From: Tridacna crocea
Lineage: Eukaryota; Mollusca; Bivalvia; Cardiida; Cardiidae
Assembly (NCBI GenBank): GCA_943736015.1
Contig: OX031058.1
Location: 3,921,001-3,985,000, forward strand
Direction of reading: 5' to 3'
DNA length: 64,000 bases
This document shows, one piece after another, positions 432-63,637 of the stretch; the stretch's first letter is position 1; each line of letters opens with the position of its first letter. A program made the position numbers and the translations under genes. The notes below the pieces were generated by a model. That model had not been told where the DNA came from and made no database searches. It saw only the letters and a program-made list of their open reading frames with translations.

Positions 432-622
432 TTAAGGTATTACCACACAATCCCTACTTTGGTCAACCCCGAGAAAAGCTGGTAACCAGCATTTTCTCCT
501 TTTCCCACAATGTTTTCTACTCTCCACAAAACAAACTTCAAATTTCCACTCACTTATTTCGCCATCTGCAAATGCTTTCATTTTGGACAAGCCTAAACTA
601 TTGTTGTATGGTAATGAGTTAA
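432..622 (+). mobile_element. Family A MITE
   Basis: TTAA lies at both ends. The outer left half of the central palindrome is deleted, so AGAAAAGC runs straight into TGGTAACC. The right TTAA (619-622) is shared with the next copy. Confidence 0.85.
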
Positions 623-850
623 GCCTTTACCACACAGCAGAATTTCAGACCTATACAAATCGAAAGTTTTTGTAGACGATAATTTCACGATGGCTCAAAT
701 GATGCAATTTTTTCTTATATAGAGTAGAAAACTTCGTGGGAAAAGGTGAAAATGCTGGTTACCAGCTTTTTCTCTTTTTTCAGACAAAGTTTTCAAAGGG
801 CCTCTTCCTCAGGGGTCGTTAAAAATCATTATTGTGTGGTACAGGGTTAG
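619..850 (-). mobile_element. Family A MITE, chained to previous copy
   Basis: Begins with the TTAA that ends its neighbour and finishes at a mutated TTAG. The stem carries ACTTCGTGGG on the left and CAAAGT on the right, so the change away from consensus CATT is mirrored in both arms. Confidence 0.85.
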
Positions 851-1311: not shown

Positions 1312-1580
1312 ATATGGAGTGCAACACGCGAAAAGGGTCATTCGGACATCTGCGTAAAGTGTCGTCTCGGATCAGCCTGCGCAGTCCGCGCAGGCTAATC
1401 CGAGACGGCACTTTCCGTTTTAATGCCATTTTCTGTTTTGCGCATGTCTACTGTAGCAGAAAATCTAATGTAGTCGTAAAGTGCCGTCTCGGATTAGCCT
1501 GCGCGGACTGCGCAGGCTGATCCGAGACGACACTTTACGCAGATGTCCGAATGTCCCTTTTCGTGTGTTGCACACCATAT
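1312..1580. mobile_element. Double-palindrome MITE (family B)
   Basis: The inverted repeats are almost 100 bp long and differ at only a few positions (ATATGGAGTGCAACACGCG against AATATGGTGTGCAACACACG). Each arm is itself a hairpin built on GTCTCGGATCAGCCTGCGCA and its complement, so one strand can fold into two hairpins or one long stem. It is markedly more GC-rich than its surroundings. It has no coding capacity, and the target duplication is ambiguous (TA or AT). Confidence 0.85.
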
Positions 1581-1858: not shown

Positions 1859-2086
1859 TTAACCCATTACCACACAATCCCTACTTTTGATGCCCCCGAG
1901 AAAGAAGCCTTTTGAAAACATCGTGGGAAAAGGAGAAAATGCTGGTAATCAGCATTTTCCCCTTTTCCCACAGTGTTTTCTACCCTTCCCAGAACAAATT
2001 TCAAATTTCTGTCACCTTTATTTTGTCATCTGCAAATGCTTTCAATTTGAACCAGTCTGAAATTTTGTTGTGTGGTAAAGAGTTAA
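1859..2086 (+). mobile_element. Family A MITE, near consensus
   Basis: L arm first (TTAACCCATTACCACACAAT), centre GGTAATC, R arm last, TTAA at both ends. Its right TTAA is shared with the following copy. Confidence 0.92.
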
Positions 2087-2311
2087 CTCATTACCACTCG
2101 AGAAAATTTTGGACTGGTCCAAATTGACAGCATTTGCAGACGACAAAATAAAGGTGACTGAAAAATAGAAATTTGTTCTGGGAAGGGTAAAAAACACTGT
2201 GGGAAAAGGAGAAAATGCTGGTTACCAGCATTTTCTCCTTTTCCCACAGTGTTTTCAAAAGGCTTCTTTCTCAGGGGCGTCAAAAGTAGGGATTGAGTGG
2301 TAATGGGTTAA
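2083..2311 (-). mobile_element. Family A MITE, chained
   Basis: Shares TTAA with copies on both sides. The stem has CACTGTGGG on the left and CCCACAGTG on the right, a symmetric departure from consensus CATTGTGGG. Confidence 0.92.
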
Positions 2312-3461: not shown

Positions 3462-3677
3462 TTAACCCATTACCACACAATCCCTACTTTTGACGCCCCT
3501 TTAGAAAACATTGTGGGAAAAGGAGAAAATGCTGGTAACCAGCATTTTCTCCTTTTCCCACAATGTGTTCTACCCTTCACAAAACAAATTTCAAATTTTC
3601 AGTCACTTTTATTTTGTTGTCTGCAAATGCTTTCCATTTGGACAAGCTTAAAATATTGCTGTGTGGTAATGAGTTAA
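3462..3677 (+). mobile_element. Family A MITE
   Basis: TTAA lies at both ends, with a small deletion in the L arm next to the stem. First of a chain of three copies joined by single TTAA sites up to 4052. Confidence 0.92.
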
Positions 3678-3827
3678 CCCTGTACTGCACAATGACAACT
3701 TTAAAGACCCTGGGACTGAAGCCTAAGTTTGAAATCATTGTTAGAAAAGGAAAAATTGCTGGTGACCAGCATTTTCTCCTTTCTCACAAGATTTTTGACA
3801 CTACCAAAGAAAAATTGTACCTTTTAA
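3674..3827 (+). mobile_element. Family A MITE, R arm deleted
   Basis: Middle member of the three-copy chain. The L arm and a slightly decayed palindrome (GGTGACC centre) are kept, and the R arm is lost after CTACCAAAGA. Confidence 0.8.
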
Positions 3828-4052
3828 CCCATTACCACACGAGAAAAATTTAGACTGGTCCAAATTCAAAGCATTTGCAGACGACAAAATAAATGTGACT
3901 GAAAAATTGAAATTTGTTTTGGGAAGGGTAGAAAACACTGTGGGAAAAGGAGAAAATGCTGGTTACCAGCATTTTCTCCTTTTCCCACAGGGTTTTCAAA
4001 AGGCTTCTTTCTCAGGGACGTCAAAAGTAGGGATTGTGTGGTAATGGGTTAA
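3824..4052 (-). mobile_element. Family A MITE
   Basis: Last member of the chain and complete. The left stem has CACTGTGGG and the right CCCACAGGG. Confidence 0.92.
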
Positions 4053-4620: not shown

Positions 4621-4842
4621 TTAACTCACATGGTTCCTACTTTTAACGACCCTGAGAAAGAAAGGCATTTGAAAACATCATGGGAAAAGGAGAAAATGCT
4701 GGTAACCAGCATTTTCTCCTTGTCCCATGATGTTTTCTACCTGTCTCAAAACAAATTTCTATGTCTTTGTCACATTTAATATTTTGTCTGCAAATGCTTT
4801 CAGATTAGCCTAGCCTAAATTTTTGTCCTTTGATAGAGTTCA
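4621..4842 (+). mobile_element. Family A MITE with mirrored stem changes
   Basis: Left stem reads ACATCATGGGA and right stem TCCCATGATGT, where the consensus is ACATTGTGGGA and TCCCACAATGT. Two base changes are thus present in both arms. The right TTAA has decayed to TTCA. Confidence 0.9.
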
Positions 4843-5171
4843 ACAAATTTGCTGCATTGTAAAAAAAAAATATTGTGGCAAAGGAGAAACTGCTCTCAAT
4901 GAGCAACTGCTCCTTACATTACAATACTTCTTAAATGTTGTCTGCATGATGGATGTTGAAGGGAGGTCAAGGTTTAGTGTGATTTGGTTCGTCAGATCAT
5001 TGTCATTATCATTCCATAAACATAAAAGTTGTATCTGGGTGTCATGGTTTGAAATTCTTTTCTCTCTGTCAAATAATCTATACTCTTCACTCCAACGTCC
5101 TCTCAAACATTTTTGTCTGGACAGTCATTGACAGGGGACATTCTCTTCCCCTTCTGAAGCCTTTCCTAATC
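4843..5171. other. No assignable gene
   Basis: AT-rich sequence with a weak family-A-like hairpin (AAAGGAGAAACTGCTC near 4880). Opposed short frames here show no recognisable domain. Confidence 0.5.
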
Positions 5172-5612
5172 AATCCCTGGTTTTCATGACCCTGAAAAAG
5201 AGGCCATTTGAAAACATTGTAATGGAAAAAGGAGAAAAAGTGGTGTTCACCAGCATTTTCACCTTTCCCAACAGTGTTTTCTACTCTCCCAGAACAAATT
5301 TCAATTTTTGACTCATGATAATTTTGTTGTCTTTAACTCTTTACCAAACGACAATATTTTAGACTGGTCCGAATTGAAAGCATTTGCAGACGACAAAATA
5401 AAAGTGACTGAAAATTTGAAATTTGTTTTGTGAAGGGTAGAAAACATTGTGGGAAAAGGAGAAAATGCTGGTTACCAGCATTTTCTCCTTTTCCCACAAT
5501 GTTTTCTAAAGGCTTCTTTCTCAGGGGCGTCAAAAGTAGGGATTGTGTGATAATGGGTTAAATGCTTTCAGTTTGGAACAGTCTAAATTTTTGTTGTTTG
5601 GTAAAGAGTTAC
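5172..5612 (+). mobile_element. Family A MITE split by another family A copy
   Basis: The outer copy runs from a decayed L end to TTTTGTTGTCT, then resumes after the insert as AAATGCTTTCAGTTTGG. Consensus here is GTCTGCAAATGC; this copy reads GTCTTTAAATGC once the insert is removed, which supplies the TTAA target. Confidence 0.85.
5333..5561 (-). mobile_element. Family A MITE nested in family A
   Basis: Complete near-consensus copy inserted at a TTAA inside the R arm of the older copy at 5172-5612. Confidence 0.92.
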
Positions 5613-5700
5613 CTCTTCAACACACAATTCTTTTTTTTAGCAACCCTGCGGAGTTTTTAAAATAATGGGAATAGATGAAAATAATAGTAACCAGCCACTG
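5609..5700 (+). mobile_element. Family A MITE fragment
   Basis: Starts at the mutated end of the previous copy (TTAC) and keeps a decayed L arm and a trace of the stem (AATAATAGTAACCAGCC). Confidence 0.5.
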
Positions 5701-5989
5701 GTCAGAATTTAGCAGATTCTGTTCTTGAAATCTTATCTTGTCAGTACCTAGGAGGTTTACATTAGGAAAAACTGTCAGTCATGTGATCTTGGACATGGCT
5801 GTGCCCTTGAAATAACTGAGTAACAACAACAGAAACGGTAAAAATATTGATATCTCTGAATCTATACTGCCAACAAAATTGATAAAAAATCAATTTACAA
5901 ATTGTTTGGCAAATGAAATGTATTTAGAAAGATTTTAATAGAACATTGTGACTGATTTCTTATTTAAGGTCTTCATCCCCTAACTCTCA

Positions 5990-6138
5990 TATTGGTCACC
6001 AGCATTTTCTCCTTTTCCCACGTTTTCTACCCTTCCCAAAACAAATCCAATTTTTGAGCCACATTTAGATCTATTTAGTTGTCTGCAAGTGCTTTCGATT
6101 TGGACAAGTATAAAATTTGTCGTTTGGTAAAGACTTAA
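5990..6138 (+). mobile_element. Family A MITE, L arm missing
   Basis: Begins in the centre (TTGGTCACCAGCATTTTC) and has a full R arm ending TTTGGTAAAGACTTAA, shared with the next copy. Confidence 0.8.
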
Positions 6139-6363
6139 CCCTTTTCAACACAATGACAACTTTTAATGACCCTGAGGAAGAGGCCTTTTGAAAACTTTGT
6201 GGGAAAAGGAGAAAATGCTGGCAACCAGCATTTTCTCCTTTTCCCACAAAGTTTTCTACGCTATCAAAGAAAAATAGCATCATCTGAGCCACTATGAAAT
6301 TATCATCTGCAGATGCTTTCAAGTTGGATAGGTCTAAAATTCTGCTGTGTGATAAAGGGTTAA
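6135..6363 (+). mobile_element. Family A MITE with mirrored stem change
   Basis: Complete, with TTAA at both ends. The stem has AAAACTTTGTGGG on the left and CCCACAAAGTTTT on the right, a symmetric change from CATT/AATG. Confidence 0.9.
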
Positions 6364-7327
6364 ATCATTGGATTATTTGGTGAAGGATGTAGGAATGTAT
6401 AAGAATAAGTTCAACCAATGATGCATCACATCATTGTGAAAGAAATGAGTGACAAAAGCTTCATTGATACTCGTAACCCTGTGAGCAGACATGTTCTTTG
6501 GTACTGTACCATAGAGATATTGGAGTGGTAGGGGGGAAATCATTTTGCGGCAGGTTAGTTTCTGTACTATATTAATTCTTTTACCTTTGACCTTACATTT
6601 TGAAATCTGTACAGATAGCTCTGTCACATAAAAGTACACTGAAACAGTTCCTTGATGGAGACTAAATCAAATTATGTCAAGTTTTATTGATTCAAAGTAA
6701 GTTTCACTGTTTGCTTGTAGATATCAAACAAAAAAATCATAAGGCTTTCCACATATAATTATATATCTAAGCAAGAGTGGCATCATTTTCCAGCATACCA
6801 AGGAAGTAGTACAGAAGTTGGCATATGTTGTAGTTGGTCATGCTGTATTCTCTTGCTCTATATGACAAATCAAGTACAACTGGGACCCAAAAAAATTACA
6901 CAAGTGAATTTATCAAAAATAAGTCATTGGTTTGTTATACACTGCATTTGGAATTTTTATGTGATTAAAAATTTTGCATAATAAGTACCCTATCATGTCT
7001 GCAAAGTTGTGCTCAGTATTCAAAGAGTTATTATACCACTTCCTGGCTGCACGATTAGAGCCAATGCAGTTTTGAAATAGTGGGTTTATTCAACTCTCAG
7101 TCTGAAGAATCTTATAAAAGTCATGATGTCCTAATGAGACCTGGGTATTGATGGGATAGCACTGGGGATTGATGGGATAGTACTTTGGCAAAAACAAGTT
7201 AACATTAATGAGGCTTTATATATGAAAACATGAAAACATTGTGACAAGTAGAGTAAAATGTCTGAATTGGAGCAGATTCTCTGTAAAGGTGCTTTTTGTT
7301 AAAATCACATTAAATTTTGTTTGTCTT
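6364..7327. other. No gene recognised
   Basis: About 960 bp of AT-rich sequence without a convincing frame, splice pattern or repeat of the classes seen elsewhere. Confidence 0.5.
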
Positions 7328-7557
7328 TTAACTCATTACCAAACGAAAAAATTTTTTTACTCAACCAAAATGAAAACGGTTACAGATGACAAATTAGATT
7401 TAGCTGAAATGATGATTTATGTCTTTAATATGGTAGAAAATATTGTGGGAAAAGGAGAAAACGCTGGTTACCAGCATTTTCTCCTTTACCCATAATGTTT
7501 TCAAAGGCCTTCTCTTTCAGGGTCGTTGAAAGTCTGGATTGTATGGTAAAGAGTTAA
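7328..7557 (-). mobile_element. Family A MITE
   Basis: Both TTAA ends are present. The R arm is diverged (AAAAAATTTTTTTACTCAAC) while the palindrome is well kept. Confidence 0.88.
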
Positions 7558-7617
7558 GACGCATTCCCCCCCCCCCCTTCCAAAACAAAAAGTATTTGCT
7601 TTGTGAGGTAAATCAGC

Positions 7618-7846
7618 TTAACCCTTGACCACACTGCAAAATTTTAGACCAATCCAAATTGTAAGCATTTGTAGACGACAATTTCAAAGTGGCTCAAATA
7701 GCACAATTTTGCTTTGATAGTGTAGAAAACTTTGTTGGAAAAGAAGAAAATGCTGGTTACCAGCATTTTCTCCTTTTCCCACAACCTTTTTAAAAGGCTT
7801 CTTCCTCAGGGGCGTCAAATGGTGTCGTTATGTGGTAAAGGGTTAA
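7618..7846 (-). mobile_element. Family A MITE
   Basis: Complete. The left stem (ACTTTGTTGG) and right stem (CCCACAACC) no longer pair fully, so mirrored change is not universal in the family. A 12-base C run lies just upstream at 7566-7577. Confidence 0.88.
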
Positions 7847-7947
7847 GTAGGGTCTTCAGATTTCTGTAAAATCTTTTTTCACCTTGAAGAGTTGACATAA
7901 TTAGGTGAACTCTCAGTTAATAAGAGATATCTTTGTATCAAGGTTTA

Positions 7948-8175
7948 TCAAACCCTTTACCTAACAACAGAAGATTAAACATGTCCAAATTTAGACCATT
8001 TGCAGACAACAAAGACAAGGTCGCTCAATTGGTGAGATTTTTTCTGGATATGGTTAAAAAACATTGTGGGAAAAGGAGAAAATGCTAGTAACCCGCATTT
8101 TCTCACAAGTTTTTCTAAAGACTTCTTCCTCAGGATCATTAGAATTTAATGTTGGAATCTTGTAGTAAATGGTTT
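7948..8175 (-). mobile_element. Family A MITE, old copy
   Basis: R arm (CCATTTGCAGACAACAAAG), intact left stem and shortened right stem. Both terminal TTAA sites have mutated. Confidence 0.75.
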
Positions 8176-8679
8176 GTCCTTTCATTCTGATCCTAACAAA
8201 GTGCTGAAGATTTAAATTGTTTATTTCAAGATTTTTTCTTTAAATGCTTAATGCTGAAGATATTTTTTTAATGACAGTTTCTTTGTCTTTAATTTCTAAA
8301 TTATGTGAGAAATAGAAAAATTGGTCATTAAACAATACATGATCATTTGCTTATATCCTCAATTTGATTGTAATTGGATTTTTAACAGAAGTTCAATGAT
8401 ATCAAATGACTGACAAAGCTGTTTCAAATTGAGTGTGCATAGAAAGATAGCTCCCCTTGCTAACATGAGCTGAAAATAAATCATATTTGAAAAAGAACCT
8501 TAAAGTGCCTTTTACAACTAGGGTTGTCTTTGTGACTACAAAAATGTGCCTCTGATTTTTGATCATCACTGTTGGCTTTGGTGAAACACTATAGTACAAA
8601 AGTAGTTATGATATTGTAATTACATGTACTTTGTTATATTTCTTGTCCAAAAACATTAATGTCCTTTGGGTACATTTGC
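8176..8679. other. No gene recognised
   Basis: AT-rich filler between two MITE copies; a 65-codon minus frame has no recognisable features. Confidence 0.5.
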
Positions 8680-8900
8680 CAATCTAAGGGATGACTTTTT
8701 GCTGCACTTGTCTAAATTGACAGCAATTGCAAACAAAAATTCAATTGTCACTCAACTGATGAAAATTGTCTTTGATAGGGTAGAAAACATAGTGGGAAAA
8801 GGAGAAAATGCTGGTTACCAGCATTTCTCCTTTTCCCACAATGTTTTCAAGAGGCTACACTTTCAGGATTGTTAACATGAGATGTGTAGTAAAAGGTTAA
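8680..8900 (-). mobile_element. Family A MITE, left end decayed
   Basis: R arm decayed at its outer end, palindrome intact, L arm shortened, right TTAA present. Confidence 0.8.
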
Positions 8901-9108
8901 TCAAAACAATACTTTTATTAAAGGAATAGAGATTTGAATCTTATTGACATTATAAAAGTGGGTAGCAATATGTTTGAGGTGCAGTAGATAGTGTTTGATC
9001 TTAAATTGTGATTTTGGAAAGTGTAATTGGCATTCTATTGAGCACAAAAGGTAAGTGCATGTATAATTATTTGGAGTTTAACCTAGGATTTCGTTTCATT
9101 GTATAGCT

Positions 9109-9331
9109 TTTTACTCTGTAGATACTCCTTTCTACGCATTTCTTGTAGGATCCTTTGGAAAACATTCTGACAAAATGTGAAATTGCTTGTGACGAGCAAT
9201 TTCACCTTTTGTCACAATGTTTTCTATGCTATCAAAAGCTGCAATATACACATAAGAAATGTCTTCATCCTTGCTGTTATTTAGTGTCCATTAGAGATAC
9301 CATAGAAATGCCTTATGGGGTAAAGGGTTAA
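9109..9331 (+). mobile_element. Subfamily A2 MITE
   Basis: Same TTAA-type ends (GGGGTAAAGGGTTAA) but different arms and a different centre, AATTGCTTGTGACGAGCAATT. It pairs with the better copy at 13.66 kb. The left terminus has lost a few bases. Confidence 0.8.
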
Positions 9332-9421
9332 CTCTGCACAAGACATTAAAACATTTAATTCTGTACATGTATACCTGTCTAAATTCAAAAAGCATTTACG
9401 AATAATCTTAATTTGTCTTAA
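9328..9421 (-). mobile_element. Family A R-arm fragment
   Basis: A 94 bp piece between two TTAA sites, one shared with each neighbour, with a weak R-arm match (CTGTCTAAATTCAAAAAGCA). Confidence 0.45.
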
Positions 9422-9625
9422 CCCTTTACCACACAATGCCGACTTGTAACGAACATGAAGAAAAAGCCTTTTGGAAACATAATGAAAAAAGGAAAAAAAT
9501 GCTGGTAATCAGCATTTTATCCATTCCCCACAAAATTTACTACCCTATTAAAGCGAAATTGCACCTTTTTAGCCACTTTTAATTGTCCTCTGCAAATACT
9601 TTCAATTTAACATCATTTTCCTGGA
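9418..9625 (+). mobile_element. Family A MITE, right end lost
   Basis: The L arm with TTAA and a diverged stem (AAAATGCTGGTAATCAGCAT) are clear. The R arm fades after AATACTTTCAATTTAA. Confidence 0.75.
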
Positions 9626-9694
9626 CTCAATTAGGTAAATTTTATCTCAAAAGCCAACTCAAGTCAGATACTATATGTCTGTAAATTTGCTAAT

Positions 9695-9899
9695 TTTACC
9701 AAATTTCAAAATTTTGTCCAAACTAAAAATATTTGCAGATGCCACAAGCTTTTGAAAATGTTACAAAAAGAGAGAATGCTGGCAACTAAGATCATTGTTT
9801 CCAACTTTTCAAGAAATTAATCCAATCAAGTAAGCAGTTGAATTAGTTGCCTGAAAATACTTCAGAGTTGGACAATTTTATGATTGTTTTGTCTCTTAA
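9695..9899 (-). mobile_element. Family A MITE, very degenerate
   Basis: Traces only: TTTGTCCAAACTAAAAATAT, TTTGCAGATG, AGAGAATGCTGGCAACTAAG and a final TTAA shared with the next copy. Confidence 0.4.
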
Positions 9900-10711
9900 C
9901 TCATTACCAAACAACAAAATTTTATACTGTTCCAAATCAAAAGCATAAATTTTGCAGATGACAAAAAATGAATGTGACTGAAAAATTGAAATTTGGTTTG
10001 GGAAGGGTAGAAAACATTGTGGGAAAAGGAGAAAATGCTGGTCACCAGCAGTGGGAAAGAACCGTAACTCTACCTTGTGCTGTCTTTGAGTTATTTCCCT
10101 TTGATCATTTTTACAGCATTTTCTGCTTGTCCAGAGGATAACTTTGTCATCTCTGGTCCGATTGACTTGAAACTTGGCATTTGTGTTTGTGGCAATAATA
10201 TGGAGCGCGATGTGAAAGAACTGTAACCCTACCTTTTGCTGTCTTTAAGTTATTTCCCTTTGATCATCATTTTTACAGCATTTTCTGCTTGTCCGGAGCA
10301 TAACTTTGTCATCTCAAGTCTGATTGACTTGAAACTTGGCAATTTTGTTTGTTGCAATAATATGGAGTGCAGTGCCGAAGAACCGTAACTCCATCATGTG
10401 TTGTCTTTGAGTTATTTTCCTTTGATCGTCATTTTCACAGCATTTTCTGTAACTTTGTCATTTTCAGTCTAAACATCTTCAAGTTTAGTATGCACAATTG
10501 TTGAAAAATTATGGAGTGCAGTGCATAAGACTCATAATTTGCTGCATTGCTATTTTCCTCTACCTGCTCTATACGATTAGTATTCCCCTTTGACAACTCG
10601 CAGTGTGACGGGCATATCTTACGACAATTTGCCGCTCTTGTTCTCACAATGTTTTCAAAAGGTTTCTTTCTCAGGGCCATTTAAAGTCAGGATTATATGG
10701 TACAGAGTTAA
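9896..10711 (-). mobile_element. Family A MITE split at its palindrome tip
   Basis: R arm and left stem run to GGTCACCAGCA at about 10,052. The right stem resumes at about 10,631 (TTCTCACAATGTTTTC) and ends at TTAA. The interruption falls at the tip of the hairpin. Confidence 0.85.
10053..10630 (+). repeat. 162 bp tandem array inside a MITE
   Basis: About three and a half units of 162 bp, each with ACAGCATTTTCTG, TAACTTTGTCAT, GACTTGAAACTTGGC and GAACCGTAACTCTACC. The same unit fills the Helitron-like element at 19.0-20.2 kb. No leader or hairpin tail accompanies it here. Confidence 0.85.
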
Positions 10712-10969
10712 ACAGTGAAGTTAATGGGAAATATTGCAATATATGTAGTTCAAAAATTGTATACTCTTTTAAATTAAAAAAGCTTATAAGATTTTGAACT
10801 TTTTTATAAGAAGGAAAAGACTAATATATTATGAAAGTTGATGCTATTCATTTTTCTAATGGAAATTCAATTGTATGATATCATTTTCTTCTATATCAAG
10901 CTGACTGAATTTTTCAAGGGGGGGATATCACACAATATCACACTATCCTGTTACAGAACATCATTTTTG

Positions 10970-11052
10970 TTTTACCCTTTGCCAGACAAAAAAATTTTAT
11001 AGCCTTGAGAGGATTTAAAGTATTTGCAGAAGACAGTTTCAGTGTGCCTTAA
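10970..11052 (-). mobile_element. Family A R-arm fragment
   Basis: ACCCTTTGCCAGACAAAAAA followed by AGTATTTGCAGAAGACA; it ends at the TTAA shared with the next copy. Confidence 0.6.
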
Positions 11053-11317
11053 CCCTTTACCAAAAGATAAAATGTTAAGACTAGTCCAAACTGAAAGCAG
11101 TTGAAGACAACAAAATTAACCTAACTCAAAAATTGATATTTGTTTCCAGCTGGGTAGAAAACATTGTGAGAAAAGGAGAAAATGCTGGTTACCAGCATTT
11201 TCTCCTTTTTCCACAATGTTTTCATAAGTCTCTTTCTTCAGAGTTGTTAAAAGTCCAGACCGTGTTGTAACTTTCTTTAGAGTTGTTAAAAGTCCAGACT
11301 GTGTTGTAAAAGGTTGA
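11049..11317 (-). mobile_element. Family A MITE with internal duplication
   Basis: Complete apart from a right end mutated to TTGA. A 39 bp stretch of the L arm (GAGTTGTTAAAAGTCCAGAC) is present twice in tandem at 11,241 and 11,280. Confidence 0.85.
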
Positions 11318-11399
11318 GATATAGGGGGATGGGGTATGCAGGAGGATTTGAATCGCTGTATATAATAGAAGTTCCAATTTCTATATTTGATATCCACTT

Positions 11400-11625
11400 T
11401 TAACTCTGTACCACGCAATCCTTAATTGAAAGATATCTAAGAGAAGATTTTTAAAAACATTGTGTGAAAAGAGGAAGATTCTAGAAACCAGTATTTTTCG
11501 TCTCCCCATTGTGTTCTCTACCTTTTCTTGGACAAATCTTTCAAATTATAGGCCACAAATGGTTTTTGGTCTTCAAATGCTTGCAAAATTGAAGAGTCTA
11601 AAACCTTTGTGGTCTGAAAGAGGCT
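11400..11625 (+). mobile_element. Family A MITE, diverged
   Basis: TTAACTCTGTACCACGCAAT starts the L arm. The stem is heavily mutated and the right TTAA is lost. Confidence 0.7.
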
Positions 11626-11632
11626 TCAATCC

Positions 11633-12050
11633 TTAACCCATAAACCAAATCGAAAGCATTTGCAGCCCACAAACATAAAGTGATTCAAAACCTGAAATTT
11701 TTTTACCTCGAGAAAACATTGTGGGAAAAGGAAAAATGCTAGGTACCAGCATTTTCTCACACTAGTTTAACCCATTACCAAACGACAATATTTTAGACTG
11801 GTCCAAATTGAAAGCATTTGCAGACGACAAAATAAAAGTGACTGAAAATTTGAAATTTGTTTTGTGAAGGGTAGAAAACATTGTGGGAAAAGTAGAAAAT
11901 GCTGGTTACCAGCATTTTCTCCTTTTCCCACAATGTTTTCTAAAGGCTTCTTTCTCAGGGGCGTCAAAAGTAGGGATTGAGTGGTAATGGGTTAAAGAGG
12001 TTATCTTCTTTATCATCATTAAAACTCTGGGTTGTGTGGTACAGAGTTAG
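11633..12050 (-). mobile_element. Family A MITE split by family A
   Basis: Outer copy: R arm and stem up to CATTTTCTCACACTAG, then the insert, then AGAGGTTATCTTCTTT and the rest of the L arm ending GTACAGAGTTAG. Confidence 0.85.
11767..11995 (-). mobile_element. Family A MITE nested in family A
   Basis: Complete near-consensus copy sitting in the older copy at 11,633-12,050, with TTAA on both sides. Confidence 0.92.
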
Positions 12051-12397
12051 AATGAAGTTGTTTGTCAAGCTGGCAATAAACATACATTATACTTTCTATA
12101 GCTATTGTAGTATTTTGTACTTCTTACCTCCTACTGTTGAAGGTTTTTGCATCGGAACTGTCCTATTTGATGACATCGTGGCAAAAAAGAAAACTTGCTT
12201 GATGTATTGAGCAGCTTTTACTGTTGTCAAAACCTTTCTAACTTATATTTGTTTTAACTTCATTTTGTGATAAATACTCAGATCTTGTTCAGGTACCTGC
12301 AACGATATTCTGTTTAAAGAAAAAAAATGTCCCATATACAAAACATGCTTTTATAATTGGGTAATTATGACCAAAACTACTTCGTATTTGAAGTCTG

Positions 12398-12642
12398 TTA
12401 ATTCTTTACCAGTTTTAATGATCCGAAGAAAAAGCTTTTTTAAAAACATTGTAGGAAAAGGTCTTTTGAAAACATTGTAGGAAAAGGAGAAAATGCTGGT
12501 AACCAGCATTTTCTCCTTTTTCCACAATGGTTTCTCCCCTTCTCAAGTCAAATTTCTGTTTTTTTAGCCACAACTATTTAATTGTCTGCAAATACTTTCA
12601 GTTTGGACTAGTCTTAAATTTTGTCGTTTGGTAAAGAGTTAA
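12398..12642 (+). mobile_element. Family A MITE with internal duplication
   Basis: A 26 bp stretch of the left stem (AACATTGTAGGAAAAGG) is doubled at 12,445-12,490. TTAA lies at both ends; first of a chain of three. Confidence 0.88.
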
Positions 12643-12851
12643 GCCTTTTACCTCTGACTTTTAACAATCCCGGGTATTATGGCTTTTGAAAACACAGTGG
12701 CAAAAGGAGAAAATGCAGGTGACTTCATTTTTCTGTAACATTTCTCGCTTCTTCCATATCAGATGCAACTTTTGATTCAAATTTTGATTGTCATCTGCAA
12801 GTACTTTCAATTTGGACAATTGTAAAAATTCCTCATTTGGTACAGAGTTAT
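12639..12851 (+). mobile_element. Family A MITE, stem decayed
   Basis: Shares TTAA with the previous copy. The right half of the stem is gone, and the right terminus is now TTAT, shared with the next copy. Confidence 0.8.
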
Positions 12852-13115
12852 CCCATTACCAAACAATCCCTCCTATTGACAACCCTTAGAAAACATTGTG
12901 TAAAAAGGAGAAAATGCTGGTAACCAGCATTTTTTCTTTTTCCCACAATGTTTTCTTCCCATTTTGAAACAAATTTCAATTCTCTAGTCACATGAATTGT
13001 TTCTTCCCATTTTGAAACAAATTTCAATTCTCTAGTCACATGAATTGTATTTTGTCGTCTGCAAATGCTTTCAATTTGGACCAATCTAAAATTTTGTTGT
13101 TTGGTAAAGTGTTAA
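12848..13115 (+). mobile_element. Family A MITE with internal duplication
   Basis: A 48 bp part of the R arm (CCCATTTTGAAACAAATTTC and onward) occurs twice in tandem at 12,953 and 13,001. Confidence 0.88.
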
Positions 13116-13139
13116 CTTTTGGGCACAGAATCAGACTAT

Positions 13140-13378
13140 TTTATCCTTTTACTATACAACAAAATTTTAAAGTTGTCCAAATTGAAAAAATTTGCAGACG
13201 ACAGATCTTGCACAAAAGTTAAAGTTTGTCTTTGATGGTATCAAAACATTTTGGGAAAAGGAGAAAATGCTAGTTTCAAGCATTACCAGCATTTTCTTCT
13301 TTTCCAACAGTATTATCAGCAAGATTTTTCCTTAGGGTATTTGAAACGTGGGGTTACTGGTATTTGGAAATAGGTTAA
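13140..13378 (-). mobile_element. Family A MITE, diverged
   Basis: The R arm is clear (AAATTTGCAGACGACAG). The centre has gained about 10 bases between the half stems. The right TTAA is intact and the left is TTAT. Confidence 0.8.
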
Positions 13379-13420
13379 TATAAAGGAATCGATATGGGTT
13401 TAGGCATTGTGATAACCTTT

Positions 13421-13627
13421 TTAACTCTTTACCAAACGACAAAATTTTAGATTGGTCCAGATTGAAAGCATTCGCAGATGATAAAATAAATGTGACTGAA
13501 AAAATTGAAATTTGTTTTAGAAAGGGAAGAAAACATATAGCAAAAGGAGAAAATGCAGGTAATAATATTTTCAAAAGGCTTCTTTCACAGAGGTGTTAAA
13601 AGTCGGGATTGTGTGGTAAAGGGTTAG
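13421..13627 (-). mobile_element. Family A MITE, right stem deleted
   Basis: R arm near consensus. Most of the right half of the palindrome is missing, so GCAGGTAATAATATTTTC runs into the L arm. Confidence 0.85.
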
Positions 13628-13658
13628 TCTTATTTCAGTTTATAATATGCAAAGTTTT

Positions 13659-13887
13659 TTAACCCTTTACTCCATAGATACTCATTTCTACGCATTGCTT
13701 GTAGGAGCCTTTGGAAAACATTGTGGCAAAAGGTGAAATTGCTCGTGACGAGCAATTTCACCTTTTGCCACAATGTTTTCTATACTATCAAAAGGTGTCA
13801 TATACACATAAGAAACGGCTTTATCCTTGCTGTTATTTAGGATCAATTAGAGATACCATAGAAATGCCGTAGGGTGTAAAGGGTTAA
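13659..13887 (+). mobile_element. Subfamily A2 MITE, complete
   Basis: TTAA lies at both ends. A perfect palindrome of about 60 bp (ACATTGTGGCAAAAGGTG … CACCTTTTGCCACAATGT) is centred on CTCGTGACGAG. The outer arms (GATACTCATTTCTACGCA, GAGATACCATAGAAATGCC) are unrelated to L or R, yet the ends CCCTTTAC and GTAAAGGG match family A. Confidence 0.88.
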
Positions 13888-13984
13888 CTTGAAAGAACTG
13901 TAAAATTTAGCTCAAACAATGAGATTTATCTGTGATGCAGTCAGTACAAAACAATACAGGAGTAGAGTAATGCATGCTTTCTAT

Positions 13985-14078
13985 ATGACCATTTTCTCTA
14001 TTTCCCACAATGTTTTCAAATGCCTTTTTTTTTAGGGTTGGACAAGAATTGATTGGATTATTTGGTAAAAGGTTACCA
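13985..14078 (-). mobile_element. Family A MITE fragment
   Basis: Right stem (TTTCCCACAATGTTTTCAAA) and a decayed L arm ending TTTGGTAAAAGGTTAC. Confidence 0.65.
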
Positions 14079-14104
14079 CAATTCTGCACCAAACAATCTT
14101 ATAT

Positions 14105-14311
14105 TTAACCCTTTACCACACAATCCCATCTTTTAATGACCCTGTTAAATAAGGCTTTTGAAAACATTGTTGGAAAAGGAGAAAATGCTGGTAACCAGCA
14201 TTTTCTCCTTTTCCCACAATGTTCTCTTCCCCTCCTAAAACAGTTCTAGATTTTTAGGCATGTTCATTTTTTCGTTAAATTTGGACCAGTCTAAAATTTT
14301 GTCATTTGGTC
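14105..14311 (+). mobile_element. Family A MITE, right end lost
   Basis: L arm and palindrome are good. Part of the R arm is deleted (TTTTTCGTTAAATTTGG) and the copy stops at GTCATTTGG. Confidence 0.85.
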
Positions 14312-14329
14312 CCTATGGAATAAAGTGTT

Positions 14330-14502
14330 TGAAAATATTGTACTGGTAAAGGGAAAAATACTGTAAACAAACATCTTATCGTTCCCCCACAATATTTTCT
14401 ACTCGTCCAAAAAAACCTCTGTTCATTTGAGTCACATTTAATTTGTCGTGTGCATTAATTAATTTCGTCGTCGAACATTTTTTCTTGTAGTATAGAGCTA
14501 AG
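14330..14502 (+). mobile_element. Family A MITE, very degenerate
   Basis: Faint stem (GTAAAGGGAAAAATACTGTA and CCCCCACAATATTTTCTAC), followed by GTCACATTTAATTTGTCGTG. Confidence 0.45.
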
Positions 14503-15173
14503 GGTATACAAGTGGCGTACTATAAGGTCTTATAGATGGTTTAATTACCTTTGATAAAGCAATATTGAACAGCAATATTTTTTTCAAAGTGTCAAGCTTG
14601 AATTATTTAAAGAACAAATCAGGTCTACAAGATGGATAAAGTTATTCATGAATGAAAAATTCCTTGTTTTGTTTTGAAATATTGATCGCTTGAAATCTCG
14701 GTGCTGGATTATTATAATTACTGTAACTGTGAATTTAAACCTGGACTTAGAGTAGATTGTTAAATTTTGAGAGAAAGTTGATTGTGAATTGGCATTCTGT
14801 GGAATATCCTGTTTGTTGTGAATTTAAATGGTTTTGTTTTACATGGATCATGAGACCAAATAGTTGAATTATAAAAAAAGGAGCACAGTATTTTTTTTAC
14901 ATATATAGTGCACTGACAAAAAGTTGTTATAATCTTCTACGTTTCGCAGTATTTCTTTGAAAAAGATTGCATATTAAAGCATAAAGAATGGAGGTAAGTA
15001 AATTGTCAGCTAATAGAATTCAGTGTTTTAATATATGGAAATTAACTTTTAAGCATTTGTACTTTTACCTACAAGATAAGATCTAAAAGCAATTTGTGTT
15101 TTATTCTCTGAGCATAGAGACAACCCCCTTGGTATTATGGTCATGCTGTTTACATAACTATTATACTGATTGA
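14503..15173. other. No gene recognised
   Basis: AT-rich. The only notable site is ATGGAGGTAAGT near 14,990, a donor-like context without a supporting frame. Confidence 0.5.
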
Positions 15174-15956
15174 TTTTTAGCTCACCTGATCACGGAGAGA
15201 TCAAGGTGAGCTTTTGTGATTGTGCTGTCTGTTGTCTATTGTGCATTTTGTAGTCATCTACAATAACTTAAGGTGTATTCCTTTCACCTGTTCTGGCACA
15301 ATCTTCTGTGGTCTGAAGTGCTGCTCTGGAATGTGAGAAAGGAATATTTCAGAACACATACACTGTTCCGGTAGTATGTTCTGAATGGAGCATTTTCGGA
15401 ACATTATTCTAAACCATATCAAAATGAAAGTACATAGCCATGATGGCTGTTGCAAGAGCTATTGTCTTAGTTGTGTTAGTTGAGAATATGATTAGCTGCG
15501 AAGGGGGAGTAGAGATAAGTGTACAATGCTCCTATTTATGGCTTTCATATCGTAAAAAAGACAGTTGCAAGTTTGGTCTTAAAGAATTGTCTAACTTGCA
15601 GCCATCTTGTATCACCTAGCAATGGTCAGCAGGTGTGCTGCACCTCGATTAAATTAGAACAGTCAGAACATGTTCTAAAGAACACAGCACAGTGTTCAGA
15701 AATACTCCATTGACCTAGAACATGTTCGGAGTGTTTGGATTAGCAAAAGGAATACGCCTCTAGTGTGCTCTCTGATGGTCACATTTTTAGTCGGGTACTC
15801 ATGAGACTTGGTCAGCATGTTTGTCTTGATGTTATGTTTGACATGTTTGAAATTCGATCACATGTCAGAAAAAAGGTCACAAGGCTAGATTTTCTGGACA
15901 AAATTAAAAGATGACTTTCCCCAGGTGAGTGCTTTAGGGCCATTGGCCCTCTTGTT
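15174..15956 (+). mobile_element. Helitron-like non-autonomous element
   Basis: Begins TTTTTAGCTCACCTGATCAC with a short hairpin (CTCACCT…AGGTGAG). It ends with AGGTGAGTGCTTTAGGGCC and a GGGCCATTGGCCC hairpin followed by CTTGTT. A leader with subterminal inverted repeat and a terminal hairpin is the layout described for molluscan Helentron/HINE elements. It has no coding capacity and carries a nested TIR element. Confidence 0.7.
15271..15759. mobile_element. TIR element nested in Helitron-like element
   Basis: Ends are AGGTGTATTCCTTT and AAAGGAATACGCCT, a 14 bp inverted repeat with one mismatch. The interior is rich in GAACA/TGTTC hairpins. The target duplication is unclear (CTTA against CTAG). 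Confidence 0.6.
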
Positions 15957-17276
15957 CCATCTATTTATCTCCCCAGTGGTTGCCCAGATAGGCAACACCT
16001 CTAGATTGCTTATTAAGTTATTGGAGACTGTGCAAGATACAGGCGATGTGACACCTGTTTCTTTATTTCGCTTGGTTAGTAGCACTGTCACATGGGGCTT
16101 TTGTTTAACCACAGGAATTGTGGTTTAACACCTGAATAAGAAAGACTATTTGTGAATTTTTATATTACGAATATACCCTTTGTCCATAATAACAGCCATA
16201 CTAAATAAACCCCCCCCCCCACTCTCCCTTCCTGTATTATTGGTGTAGAGTTAAGATGCAATCCTTCAAACATGGCCAAAAAAAAGATACAAAATATTGC
16301 TCATTTGTAAGAAATTGTGTTAATATAAGGCCATGAGTAAAACAGTTCACTTGTAAAGAACTAATGGATTTAACCTTAAAAATTGAATCCCAGAAGAATT
16401 CCTGGGAATCAAAACGAGATGTTATCACTTACTGTAACAAAGAGAAGTTCTGTAATGGTGTCAGTTTGCTAAAATATTTATCCCATTTACTTAGATTTAT
16501 CCCATTTACTTAGAGTGATACCTGTCCATGAGAATTAAATAGGCCATGACTATGAAATCGGAAATCTAGACTATGAAATTGGAAATCTATCGGATGTTTG
16601 AGTAATTTGGTAAACCTTAATCATATGGATTGTATCAAGATTTGTGATTAGAGCCAAGCAAATTGATTTTTTTTTTAAAATTCTTTTCTTTATATCAAAT
16701 TGATTTTCTTAATCCTTTTACCATTGGGTGCTTTGATAACACAGAGCTTGTCTTTTTGGAATGAATGTTGTCATTCAACAGATGTTCTACATCCTAGAAT
16801 ATCAGTGAAGGCTCAGAGTTGAATCTGGAATGGCCAATCTGGGCCTTTCTGAGGAATAGATGAAGGTCTGTTTGACAGAACTAATCACCCTCTCTCAAGA
16901 CTTGGTCCTAAATAATGCTTTTCAGACGTGGCTAGGTCTAAAATTTTGTAATTAAGGTTAAAGGTGGCCCTTCAAATCTTGGGACGAAAATTTTACAAAA
17001 AATGCAAAAAAAATCATCCTTATACACCCAAAGCCTTTTAATTTTCACTCATAAAACCCCAGTAGTCGAAAACCACCTGACAACACGAGAAAATAGAGAT
17101 TTACTATGGCCCAGGTTGACACCAACGGGAGACACGTTCTATTTTTAGATGATCAGTTCGCTCATTTACATACAGGAATACACAGACTAAGTTTCAAACA
17201 TAGCGTCTGAAGAAGACTGATTATGGAAAATAATTATAACATGTTTGTTATGTAATGGAATTTAGGCGTTATGAGT
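15957..17276. other. No gene recognised
   Basis: Includes a C run at about 16,209-16,220 and a duplicated 18-mer (TTTATCCCATTTACTTAGA) near 16,480-16,515. A 75-codon minus frame and its plus shadow at 15.9-16.1 kb show no domain. Confidence 0.5.
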
Positions 17277-17330
17277 CACGTGCAAGTCACTTGACATTCC
17301 CACAATGCTTCATTGATTTTTGGCGCGAAA
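17277..17330. promoter_or_regulatory. Cluster of promoter-type motifs
   Basis: An E-box CACGTG (17,277), TTCCCACAATGC (17,297, resembling the ZNF143/Staf core) and TTTTTGGCGCGAAA (17,317, a strong E2F-type site) lie within 54 bp. This is motif evidence only. It may be part of an unrecognised repeat, and no first exon was identified beside it. Confidence 0.3.
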
Positions 17331-17409
17331 TCTAAAAATACCTTAAGAGGCTACGTAGGCTTTTAAGGGAACACCATCAAAAGAATTTTTTTTTGGAATT
17401 TTATGAATA

Positions 17410-17637
17410 TTAACTCATTACCACACAATCCCGACTTTTAACGACCCTAAGGAAGAAGCCTTTAGAAAACATTGCGGGAAAAGGAGAAAATGCTGGTAAC
17501 CAGCATTTTCTCCTTTTCCCACAATGTTTTCTTCCCTTCACAAACAAATTTCAAATTTTCAGTTACTTTTATTTTGTCGTCTGCAAATGCTTTCGATTTG
17601 GACAAGCCTAAAATTTTGTCGTTTGGTAATGAGTTAA
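17410..17637 (+). mobile_element. Family A MITE with known empty site
   Basis: Complete. Removing it leaves TTATGAATATTAATTATTGA, which matches the uninterrupted paralogue near 40,063 (complement TTATGATTCTTAATTATTGA), so the insertion duplicated exactly TTAA. Confidence 0.93.
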
Positions 17638-17729
17638 TTATTGATGATTTGTATTATTTTTTCATATGAATTTCAGTGATACATATATTTATTAATTTGG
17701 TGAGATGTAAAAAGTCTAAATACCCACTT

Positions 17730-17911
17730 TTAAGTCTTTACCAAACTACGCATTTTTGGACTAGTCCAAACGGAAAGCATTTATTTAGTAGACGGCAAAA
17801 TAAATATGACTGAAAAGTTAAAATTTGCTATTGGAAGGGTACAAAACAATGTTTACTGAAGCCTTCTCTTTCAGGGTGGTCAAAAGTAGTTGTTCTGTGG
17901 TAAAGGGTTAA
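17730..17911 (-). mobile_element. Family A MITE lacking the palindrome
   Basis: Keeps R arm, L arm and both TTAA ends, but the centre is reduced to AAAACAATGTTTACTGAAG. The paralogous empty TTAA lies at 39,967-39,970. Confidence 0.85.
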
Positions 17912-18331
17912 TTATATACCTATTATGGGATGTAAAGGTGGGACATGGAAGGCGTCAGCTCAAACTGTAATCAGGAAAAATGTGAGGTCAAATCTCACCT
18001 TGAAGTAATAATTTTTACAACAATGCTATCAGTTCCTACAGCTTTTATTTACAGTTTACACAGGGGACAACCTCTATGTTCGCATTATCCGACTGCGACC
18101 TTTATTGGATCAATTCCAAATTTTTTTTGTCAAAATTGAATCAAACTGACGTGGTCACACTTCTGGCAGACTAATTGAATTTTCGTTTCCAGTTTCAATA
18201 CTAACCATGATGCTTGGCTGAGACAATTACTTGCTGCTCATATACCAAAGGTCTTGAAGAGTTGGCTGAATGCAGCATTTTTCCAAATAAGTGTACAATA
18301 CGACAACATTTAACCAATTTCTGAATCTTAT
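17912..18331. other. No gene recognised
   Basis: A 64-codon plus frame begins at 17,945 but has no domain, splice context or repeat identity. Confidence 0.45.
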
Positions 18332-18565
18332 TTAAACAACTTTACCAGAAAACAAAATCTTATGCTCATGCCTGTTAAAGGCATTTGTAGAAGAAGACAA
18401 ATAACATTTTGCTCTGATTATAGGATTTGTCTCTGAGAAGGTAGGAAATGTGGTGAGAAAAGGAGAAAATACTGGTGATCAGTATTTTCTCCTTTTCTCA
18501 AAATGTTTTTGAAAACCGTCTCTGTTGGAGTCATTGAAATGCAGGACTGTGTGGTAAAAACTTAA
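18332..18565 (-). mobile_element. Family A MITE with mirrored stem changes
   Basis: The stem reads GTGAGAAAAGGAGAAAATAC on the left and GTATTTTCTCCTTTTCTCA on the right. Both the G-to-A change in ATGC and the GTGGG-to-GTGAG change appear in both arms. The arms outside the stem are much more diverged. Confidence 0.85.
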
Positions 18566-20812: not shown

Positions 20813-22140
20813 TTAACCCTTTACCACACAATCCGGACTTTTAACAACCTTTAGAAAGAAGCCTTCTGAAAACATTGTGAGAAAAGGAGAAATTGCTGGT
20901 AACCAGCATTTTCTCCTTTTCACACAATGTTTTCTTGCCTTCCCATAAGAAATTTCAAATTTTCAGTCACTTTTATTTTGTCATTTTTAGCTCTACTGGC
21001 TTTCAGCCAGCAGCGCTTATGTCATGGCGTGGTTTCCGTCTGTCCGTCCGTTACTCTTTTTCTTGTTTACGCGATAAAGTCTGCATTTGCTGCCCAATTT
21101 TCATGAAACTTGCACAGTTTGTTTATCTCATCAACAGCTTCAACCCTATTGATTTTGAGAAAAATCCAACAAACAGTATGGGAAAAGTAGCCAGTTCAAG
21201 TTGAAAATTTCAAAATCTTGTTTACACGATAGAGTCTGCATTTGTGGTCAGATTTTCGTGAAACTTGCAGAGTTTGTTTATCTCATCAATAGCTTTAACC
21301 CAATTGATATTGAGAAAAATTCAACAAACAGTATGGGAAAAGTAGCCATTTCAAGTTGAAAATTTCAAAATCATGTTTACAAGATAAGTCTATATTTGTT
21401 GCCCGATTTTTGTGAAACTTGCACAGTTTGTTTATCTCATCAATATCTCAACCCTATTGATTTTGAGAAAAATCCAAGAAACAGTATGGGAAAAGTAGCC
21501 ATTTCAAGTTGGAAATTTCAAATTCTTGTTTAGGCGATAAAGTCTGCATTTGTGGTCAGATTTTTCGTGAAACTTGCACAGTTTGTTTATCTCATCAATA
21601 GCTTTAACCCTATTAATTTTGAGAAAAATCCAAGAAACAGTATGGGAAAAGTAGCCATTTCAAGTTGAAAATTTCTAAATCTTGTTTATGCAATAAAGTC
21701 TGCATTTGTTGCTGATTTTCATGAAAATCACACAGTTTGTTTATCTTATCAGTAGCTTCAACCCTATTGATTTCGAGAAAAATCCAATAAACAGTATGGA
21801 AAAAATAGCCATTTCAAGTTGAAAATTTCAAATTCTTGTTTACTGGATAAAATGTGCATTTGTAATTAGATTTTTGTGAAACTTGCACAGTTTGTTTATC
21901 TCACCAATAGCTTCAACCCTACCTATTTTGAAATAAATCTAACAAACAGTATGGGAAAAGAAACCATTTCAAGTTGAAAATTACCAATTCTTGTTTTCGT
22001 GACAAAGTATGCATTTCTTGTCAGACTTTCATGAAAAAGCAAAATTGAATTCTCTGCCAGTAGAGCATATTCAGGCCCTTCAGGGCCTTCTAGTTTCAAT
22101 TTGGACCAGTCTCAAATTTTGTCCCTTGGGACAGAGTTAA
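20813..22140 (+). mobile_element. Family A MITE split by a Helitron-like element
   Basis: L arm, palindrome and part of the R arm run to TTTTATTTTGTCA. The remainder resumes at TTTCAATTTGGACCAGTCTC and ends GACAGAGTTAA. About 10 bp of the R arm (CTGCAAATGC) are absent at the junction. Confidence 0.88.
20984..22093 (+). mobile_element. Helitron-like element with six 155 bp units
   Basis: The leader is TTTTTAGCTCTACTGGCTTT with a CTGGC…GCCAG hairpin and GTCTGTCCGTCCGT. Six tandem units of 153-156 bp each carry GTTTGTTTATCTCATCAA and AACAGTATGGGAAAAGTAGC. The tail is GCCAGTAGAGC, then a GGCCCTTCAGGGCC hairpin, then TTCTAGT. The tail hairpin followed by CTAG fits a Helitron 3' end. Inserted in a family A MITE. 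Confidence 0.8.
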
Positions 22141-39949: not shown

Positions 39950-40120
39950 CGAATTCCCTCAAGGTATTAAAGGTGAGTATTTAGAATTTTTACATCTCAC
40001 CAAATTGAAAAATATATATAGCACTGAAATTTATATGAAAAAATAATACAAATCATCAATAATTAAGAATCATAAAATTACAAATAAAGAAAATTTTGAT
40101 GGTATTCCCTTAAAAACCCA
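39950..40120 (-). repeat. Dispersed repeat, uninterrupted copy
   Basis: Complement of the 17,362-17,930 repeat without its two MITEs. TTAA occurs at 39,967 and 40,063, exactly where the insertions lie in the other copy. Confidence 0.75.
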
Positions 40121-43587: not shown

Positions 43588-43821
43588 TTGATTCTTTACC
43601 AAATAGCAAAGCTTTTAGCCTTGTCCAAAGTTAAAGCATTGGCAGACATCATAATTATCAAATATTATTCAAAACACAAAATTTGTCTTTTATAGGGATG
43701 AAAACATATAGGGAAAAGGAGAAAATGCTGGTTACCAGCATTTTCTCCTTTTCCCTAAAATGTTTTTAAAATTTTTCAAATCAGGATGGTTAAATGTTGA
43801 GATTGTGAAGTAAAAGGTTCA
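43588..43821 (-). mobile_element. Family A MITE, diverged arms
   Basis: The stem is well paired (ATAGGGAAAAGGAGAAAATG with CATTTTCTCCTTTTCCCTA) while the outer arms are decayed. GTGGG has changed to TAGGG, mirrored as CCCTA. Confidence 0.85.
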
Positions 43822-45805: not shown

Positions 45806-46035
45806 TTAAATTCTTTGCCAAACAACAAGATTTCAGACATGTCCAAATTCAAAGCACTTGCAGACGAGAATTAAATCTGACTGAAAAAATTAAAATTTCC
45901 TATGGTAAAGGTAGAAAACTTTGTGAAAAAAGGAGAAAATTCTGGTTACCAGCATTTCCTCCTTTTCCCACAATGTTTTCAAAAAGCGTCTTTCTCAGGG
46001 TCATTAAAAGTCTGGATGGTGTGGTAAACGGTTAA
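45806..46035 (-). mobile_element. Family A MITE
   Basis: Complete. The left stem is decayed (ACTTTGTGAAAAAAGG) but the right stem is consensus. Confidence 0.9.
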
Positions 46036-46054
46036 CAAAGACAGTGATTATCAT

Positions 46055-63513: not shown

Positions 63514-63637
63514 CTGGAAAAAGAAACAAGAACGTTTCTTCATTTAAAGATCCAATGCATGTTGAAATATTTATTTGATCTATAATTATGGCATGTTTAT
63601 TTTCATGGAGGAAAAAAAAAAAACTATTTCATTTCAT

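Follow-up and report, generated by a model that had tools for sequence, protein, structure and literature searches.

Mobile palindromes, and processes that can make the two arms of a palindrome agree, have been described in several systems. Bacterial REPINs (PMC3116915) are mobile palindromic units that form a hairpin, carry mirrored changes, are tied to RAYT tyrosine transposases and are proposed to pass through a single-stranded intermediate. Template switching that homogenises the arms of inverted repeats has been reported in yeast genes (PMC8604942) and in RNA genes (PMC8794818) and would predict mirrored multi-base changes such as the CATCATGGG/CCCATGATG pair discussed below. The 64,000-nucleotide stretch of Tridacna crocea DNA analysed here (the window; positions 3921001-3985000 of its contig, in a genome of 1.05 Gb in 31 contigs) contains many copies of a miniature inverted-repeat transposable element (MITE) with a long central palindrome. 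A sequence-only reading of this DNA had noted that bases departing from consensus in one stem of the palindrome are matched in several copies by complementary changes in the other, and had ascribed this mirroring to arm-to-arm correction or to selection on an RNA hairpin. We lean, with modest confidence, towards a different explanation: as far as tracing went, most mirrored variants identify the source lineage from which a copy descends, and inserted copies decay arm by arm. Compared with REPINs, this family is a eukaryotic TTAA element that decays mostly by single-arm change and in which subfamily inheritance was tested. It also departs from template-switch homogenisation in that three of the four traced sets of mirrored variants are mainly inherited, no clear inversion of the spacer is seen, and the arms of one copy are no closer to each other among the closest relatives. 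Among the titles and abstract openings listed in a literature search, none described mirrored changes in the central palindrome of a eukaryotic MITE, and none described the present family, which is a very abundant MITE of known type, here unmatched to any described family.

The repeats named in the sequence-only reading are copies of one element of ~229 bp, flanked by TTAA, in which a palindrome of 65 bp lies between a short 5′ arm (columns 0-55) and a long 3′ arm. The left and right stems of the palindrome are each 32 bases long and are separated by a single unpaired base. In the near-consensus copy at 5332-5562 (minus strand), the stem folds completely as single-stranded DNA at 5438-5508 (−39.1 kcal/mol under DNA parameters). 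Changes were scored against the family consensus, and numbers such as 63 or 78 denote stem pair columns. The coordinates and examples of the earlier reading were correct, including the adjacent mirrored 63C and 64A (CATCATGGG/CCCATGATG) in the plus-strand copy at 4621-4842 (stem 4672-4736, with one unpaired change; DNA fold at 4674-4740, −31 kcal/mol). Mirrored 61T occurs in the copies at 6135-6363 (plus strand, stem 6191-6255, one single-arm change) and 619-850 (minus strand, six single-arm changes), and 62C, which is mirrored in 16 of 230 sampled copies, in that at 2083-2311 (minus strand, stem 2191-2255). Two further minus-strand copies carry mirrored 67A and 82A (18332-18565, six single-arm changes) and mirrored 64T (43588-43821, two single-arm changes). 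Together the six copies contain 8 mirrored pairs, but 16 single-arm changes stand alongside them. Two minus-strand copies said to lack the pattern indeed hold no mirrored pair: that at 7618-7848 has three single-arm changes and one pair changed in both arms without complementarity, and that at 45806-46036 has five single-arm changes.

The same contrast holds family-wide. In 235 stem-spanning copies, drawn from the window and 250 kb of the same genome, 6,989 pair cells comprised 5,842 with the consensus in both arms, 511 changed on the left only, 473 on the right only, 115 mirrored and 48 non-complementary doubles. Column frequencies predict 36.7 mirrored cells, far fewer than the 115 observed or the 110 left without five identical tandem copies from locus L007; five of the six such copies were dropped (230 of 235 kept) from all but the pair-cell and column-frequency counts. 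A control matched for number of changes and for outer arms, made with the 202 copies that have at least 28 scorable pairs, predicted 46.4 mirrored pairs vs 102 observed, a number reached in none of 2,000 draws. The mirrored excess is real, yet a minority (115 of 1,147 changed pairs, 10%); most of the changed pairs, 984, are altered in one arm only. The count of covarying against single-arm changes proposed in the sequence-only reading supports its impression of covariation and reveals a far commoner class beside it. Its statement that the outer arms diverge freely was borne out by a mean divergence from consensus of 19-21% there vs about 10% in the stem.

Four sets of mirrored variants were traced. 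Three of them (78C/G, 79T/A and 62C/80T/85C) are mainly inherited; the fourth, 63C/64A, is not one lineage. Genome-wide variant counts were made with letter-pattern searches, and the variant copies fetched were early places among the matches listed, not random draws; 20 consensus-stem copies, all located within the initial 1.8 Mb of a single contig, served for comparison, several of which had unalignable outer arms and were left out of the distances, as were 3 of 20 78C/G copies. Pair 78 is changed in both arms at 273 places in the genome vs 16 in an offset control (left 78 with right 97), and C/G makes up 88 among the 100 matches listed of the 273. Judged by eye, 15 of the 17 alignable 78C/G copies (20 fetched) belong to one outer-arm subfamily, and their mean outer distance was 0.217 within the group vs 0.284 to consensus-stem copies. 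At pair 79 there were 191 doubles, the 100 matches listed being 39 C/G, 35 T/A, 12 G/C and 14 non-complementary. Fifteen of 20 fetched 79T/A copies (L076-L095) constitute one burst, near-identical over the whole element, which suggests that the family may have moved recently. Clusters and a tree (FastTree and parsimony) were built from the outer arms of 181 copies with at least 110 of 143 outer columns; in one 5-copy cluster 62C, 80T and 85C are jointly the majority state and fully mirrored, and at the same cut none of the four clusters of at least 4 copies has a majority unpaired stem change.

Change after insertion has a different character. The largest outer-arm cluster, of 66 copies, has singletons at 1.21% per site in the 5′ arm, 1.29% in the stem and 1.42% in the 3′ arm (those of the outer arms may be under-counted where an inherited allele masks them), and shared changes at 7.5%, 2.9% and 9.05%, respectively. 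In this cluster private mutation makes no distinction between stem and outer arms, whereas inherited change reaches the stem at only about a third of the rate seen outside it. With stem singletons equal to those outside and only 13 mirrored changes (9 of them 62C) vs 127 single-arm ones, correction was ruled out as the main cause of the low divergence of the stem. Among the closest relatives (outer distance <0.08; 53 pairs, 35 copies), the arms mismatched at 4.8% within a copy vs 4.9% between copies, a comparison that would miss correction affecting fewer than about one change in ten. On the terminal branches of the tree, which include unsampled source history, 625 single-arm changes were placed with 31 mirrored and 13 non-complementary doubles, a single-arm to mirrored ratio of 20 to 1; internal branches held 79 single-arm, 4 mirrored (0.24 predicted) and 6 non-complementary changes. 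Per site, the stem changed 1.55 times vs about 5 in the outer arms on internal branches. Ongoing self-correction between the arms of inserted copies is thus at best rare.

These observations are what would be expected if the palindrome were maintained in source elements. Elements that produce further copies would tend to keep the palindrome, both in sequence and in symmetry, so that a stem change spreading from a source lineage would often sit in both arms and be inherited by the progeny as a subfamily mark; an inserted copy would be largely free, with each arm gathering point changes separately. Constraint at the source could reflect selection for a palindrome needed in transposition, whether for binding of transposase or a host factor or for hairpin extrusion, and the change in the second arm could come from an ordinary second mutation or from one template switch in the source element. 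The palindrome does seem to be constrained in source elements, most clearly in the largest cluster and less clearly in two clusters of 9 copies, the second of which has shared changes at 2.0% in the 5′ arm, 0.35% in the stem and 4.0% in the 3′ arm.

Several results weigh against this account. The first 9-copy cluster shows no depletion of shared changes in the stem (2.2/2.7/3.2% for 5′ arm, stem and 3′ arm), and in both clusters singletons, which in small clusters include inherited variants, are lower in the stem (7.9/4.6/6.8% in the first and 2.2/1.9/3.8% in the second). Terminal branches likewise have fewer changes per site in the stem (11.1) than outside (17-18). Of the 20 79T/A copies fetched, five are not part of the burst, and 62C is placed by the outer-arm tree on four branches, two of them internal and two terminal, and so has not one clean origin. 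At a looser cut, an 8-copy cluster, to which the 61T copies at 6135 and 619 belong, has a majority unpaired right-arm change at pair 61; unpaired variants can therefore spread too, and a two-step path exists. Of 19 mirrored variants shared by at least 2 copies with usable distances, only 2 (by the table) or 3 (by a re-drawn tally) cluster by outer arms; that none of 98 single-arm variants present in at least 4 copies does so (p 0.05 or less) speaks, by contrast, for the account. This test is weak for old, divergent copies because their outer distances saturate. At outer distances of 0.08-0.12 the arms mismatched at 4.8% within copies vs 5.4% between, with similar small gaps beyond (14.4% vs 16.7% over all 202 copies), although inheritance also predicts such gaps. 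The 31 mirrored changes on terminal branches exceed the 13.2 predicted from shifted pairs, so that the comparison with an outer-arm phylogeny suggested in the earlier reading brought out both an excess of paired changes and, with 625 single-arm events, their rarity. An excess also persists when common variants are masked, with 47 mirrored vs 33 expected in 202 copies (pairs shifted by up to five columns gave 74 matches in 96 pair-shifts, vs the 47 over 32 true pairs) and, among the 119 copies that have no more than 4 stem changes, 11 vs 2.4.

The 63C/64A variant is a further point against. Genome-wide it is mirrored at 10 places (two of them a tandem pair), left-only at 195 and right-only at 91, against 32,084 places with the consensus, and only 0.55 mirrored places are expected if the arms change independently. 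Mean outer distance was 0.296 among the mirrored copies, vs 0.249 among consensus-stem copies (nine compared, with at least one, L026, unalignable; L028 was dropped as overlapping L027), and by these outer-arm alignments the mirrored variant sits in unrelated backgrounds and does not form a single recent subfamily. The expectation is inflated, by an unquantified factor, through differences in age among the copies and through a CpG intermediate that changes fast. CpG decay was rejected as the sole source of the variant: the consensus stem contains no CpG, which leaves only a route via an intermediate. The poorer fit of the two 9-copy clusters and of several 62C placements, relative to the largest cluster, slightly lowered our confidence in source-level inheritance; small source lineages, rare template switching or exchange of stems could explain the residue.

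One rival account has the residual mirrored variants made by rare template switching at the hairpin, or by intrastrand gene conversion, within copies already inserted; it is a tentative possibility that we judge unlikely on balance. That short inverted repeats become homogenised is well established (PMC8604942), and the excess left in clean stems and on terminal branches, the several unrelated backgrounds of 63C/64A and pair 81, where 46 of 69 doubles (all listed) are complementary vs ~15 by quasi-independence, are all in its favour. Frequent exchange between the arms would make the unpaired centre A drift towards T; the centre bases of 216 copies comprise 165 A, 24 T, 20 G and 7 C, and this weak test with its 1-nt spacer gives no clear sign of inversion, because T, at 11%, exceeds G and the average A-to-T change of outer A columns (7.9%) by only a little, though it is well above that of stem A columns (2.6%). 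Further points against are the lack of within-copy closeness of the arms among the closest relatives, in whose 35 copies rare correction would be invisible, and pair 78, where T/A and G/C together account for 5 among the 100 matches listed vs 8 of 16 in the offset control. The earlier proposal of arm-to-arm correction is accordingly weakened: no strong effect was detected, and a 2- to 4-fold residual mirrored excess is what still speaks for it. That reading had contrasted correction with a history in which symmetric variants all trace to a few inherited subfamilies with no excess of new paired changes; inheritance was found for three of the four sets, but the residual excess and the scattered 63C/64A do not belong to such a history. 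The specific proposal that rare template switching repeatedly copies changes between arms, so that CATCATGGG/CCCATGATG would arise independently in unrelated MITE backgrounds, appears doubtful to us; if true, the family would be a natural mutation-accumulation assay for hairpin template switching in vivo.

The residual excess might instead be statistical, with coincidences made commoner by sites that mutate readily, by differences in age among the copies and by small subfamilies missing from the sample, an explanation that we find improbable as a whole. Partly mirrored 63C/64A intermediates are plentiful among the 100 matches listed of 850 with up to 2 mismatches, the T63C change makes a CpG that may decay fast to the variant, and at pair 83 complementary doubles make up 54 among the 100 matches listed of 235 vs 35 by quasi-independence. 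(Such fits were unstable at pairs 78 and 79, where non-complementary cells are too few, that for 78 being degenerate, and were not used there.) The control matched for number of changes, however, still leaves an excess, and mirrored classes other than transitions are over-represented, as with G/C at pair 81 (10 vs 2.7 expected) and T/A at pair 79 (35 among the 100 matches listed, mostly the burst). Gene conversion between copies in their best-conserved segment, which would move a mirrored stem as a unit between subfamilies, seems quite improbable: it would accommodate 63C/64A in unrelated backgrounds and the consensus stem that is the majority in a 9-copy cluster of which 24% of the outer columns depart from the global consensus, but 78C/G and the 79T/A burst mostly keep to their own outer-arm lineages. 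Least probable is selection on a small-RNA or structural RNA hairpin, whether acting on every copy or on source copies only. The stem-loop folds perfectly (under DNA parameters) and clusters differ by mirrored majority changes, but an RNA-level signature was not found: single-arm changes giving G-U (246) are not preferred over those giving A-C (286; 230 copies, strand read short-arm-first), private changes in the largest cluster are equally frequent in the stem and outside, and an Rfam search of the window at gathering thresholds returned no match.

When the two halves of a stem covary in a repeat family, hairpin correction or RNA selection may readily seem proven. Here outer-arm phylogeny and genome-wide counts show that source elements passed on much of the covariation that can be traced, and set a bound on the frequency of arm-to-arm correction after insertion; the contrast between inherited and private change, together with this limit, is the useful part of the case. 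Given two related genomes, the abundance of the family would make the rate of template switching in palindromes measurable in vivo.

Abundance was estimated with a profile built from 15 copies, which has 82 matches in the window, 55 of them spanning the stem, and covers 22.9% of its bases. Sixteen arbitrarily placed 10-kb stretches elsewhere in the genome (L005-L020) gave 138 matches, or 15.6% of 160 kb (0 to 54% each), and the 59-base stem consensus has 32,084 exact matches genome-wide; by extrapolation from the sampled density, the genome holds several hundred thousand related copies. Among 144 near-full-length copies, 91 are bounded by TTAA on both sides, 36 on one side and 17 on neither, the chance of a TTAA per 14-mer end window being ~9%. 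The consensus ends, TTAACCCTTTACCACACAAT and TTAACTCTTTACCAAACGAC, contain terminal inverted repeats, and a CCC start is typical of piggyBac. Joining the flanks of the plus-strand copy at 17410-17636 gave element-free matches in L022 (90%), L018 and window 39983-40118, none of which overlaps a MITE match; TTAA is single in L022 and in the window copy and mutated in L018, which indicates that it is duplicated on insertion. Junction-spanning matches were obtained for 33 of 92 joined flanks, some being MITE sequence, and of three inspected one was clear, one had a degenerate junction and one overlapped the MITE itself.

Judged from these sequence features, the repeats are copies of one non-autonomous, TTAA-target, piggyBac-like MITE family. 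With piggyBac-superfamily MITEs they share the terminal TTAA duplicated on insertion, the short terminal repeats (TTAACCCTTTACCACAC / TTAACTCTTTACCAAAC), the lack of coding capacity and the presence of piggyBac DDE (PF13843) matches in the same genome; they differ in having a long central palindrome separate from the terminal repeats and in that the mobilising transposase is only a candidate. PF13843 has 118 matches in this genome, several in long open frames, and none in 14 control genomes. An autonomous partner of the MITE would share the ends TTAACCCTTTACC, and the PF13843 genes are candidate partners only. Several of these genes are intact, with identical scores, and current activity is possible.

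Other arrangements of the element were noted in passing. Neighbouring MITEs adjoin with a common TTAA at window 1859-2311, where the plus-strand copy at 1859-2086 meets that at 2083-2311, and at 3462-3830, suggesting that the element's own TTAA end can act as an insertion target. In L007 (G000:C1:25000001-25010000) one MITE copy lies inside a ~1.67-kb tandem repeat, and its six occurrences all have the same score. Window 20813-22005 holds a ~155-bp tandem array (family D20) that starts in or beside the MITE copy at 20813, and from its position this satellite looks as if it had grown out of that copy.

Outside the MITE family, a Pfam search of four long open reading frames gave one with an endonuclease and a weak reverse-transcriptase match and three without a match, among them a 398-amino-acid open frame at window 62350-63543 (minus strand). 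L008 (G000:C2:5000001-5010000) has no MITE match and contains a dense series of long open frames, one of them without a Pfam match, a row that we take to resemble a Polinton-like element. Finally, window 1320-1580 holds a separate element with long inverted arms (GCAACACGCGAAAAGGG...), which is presumably common in bivalve genomes.

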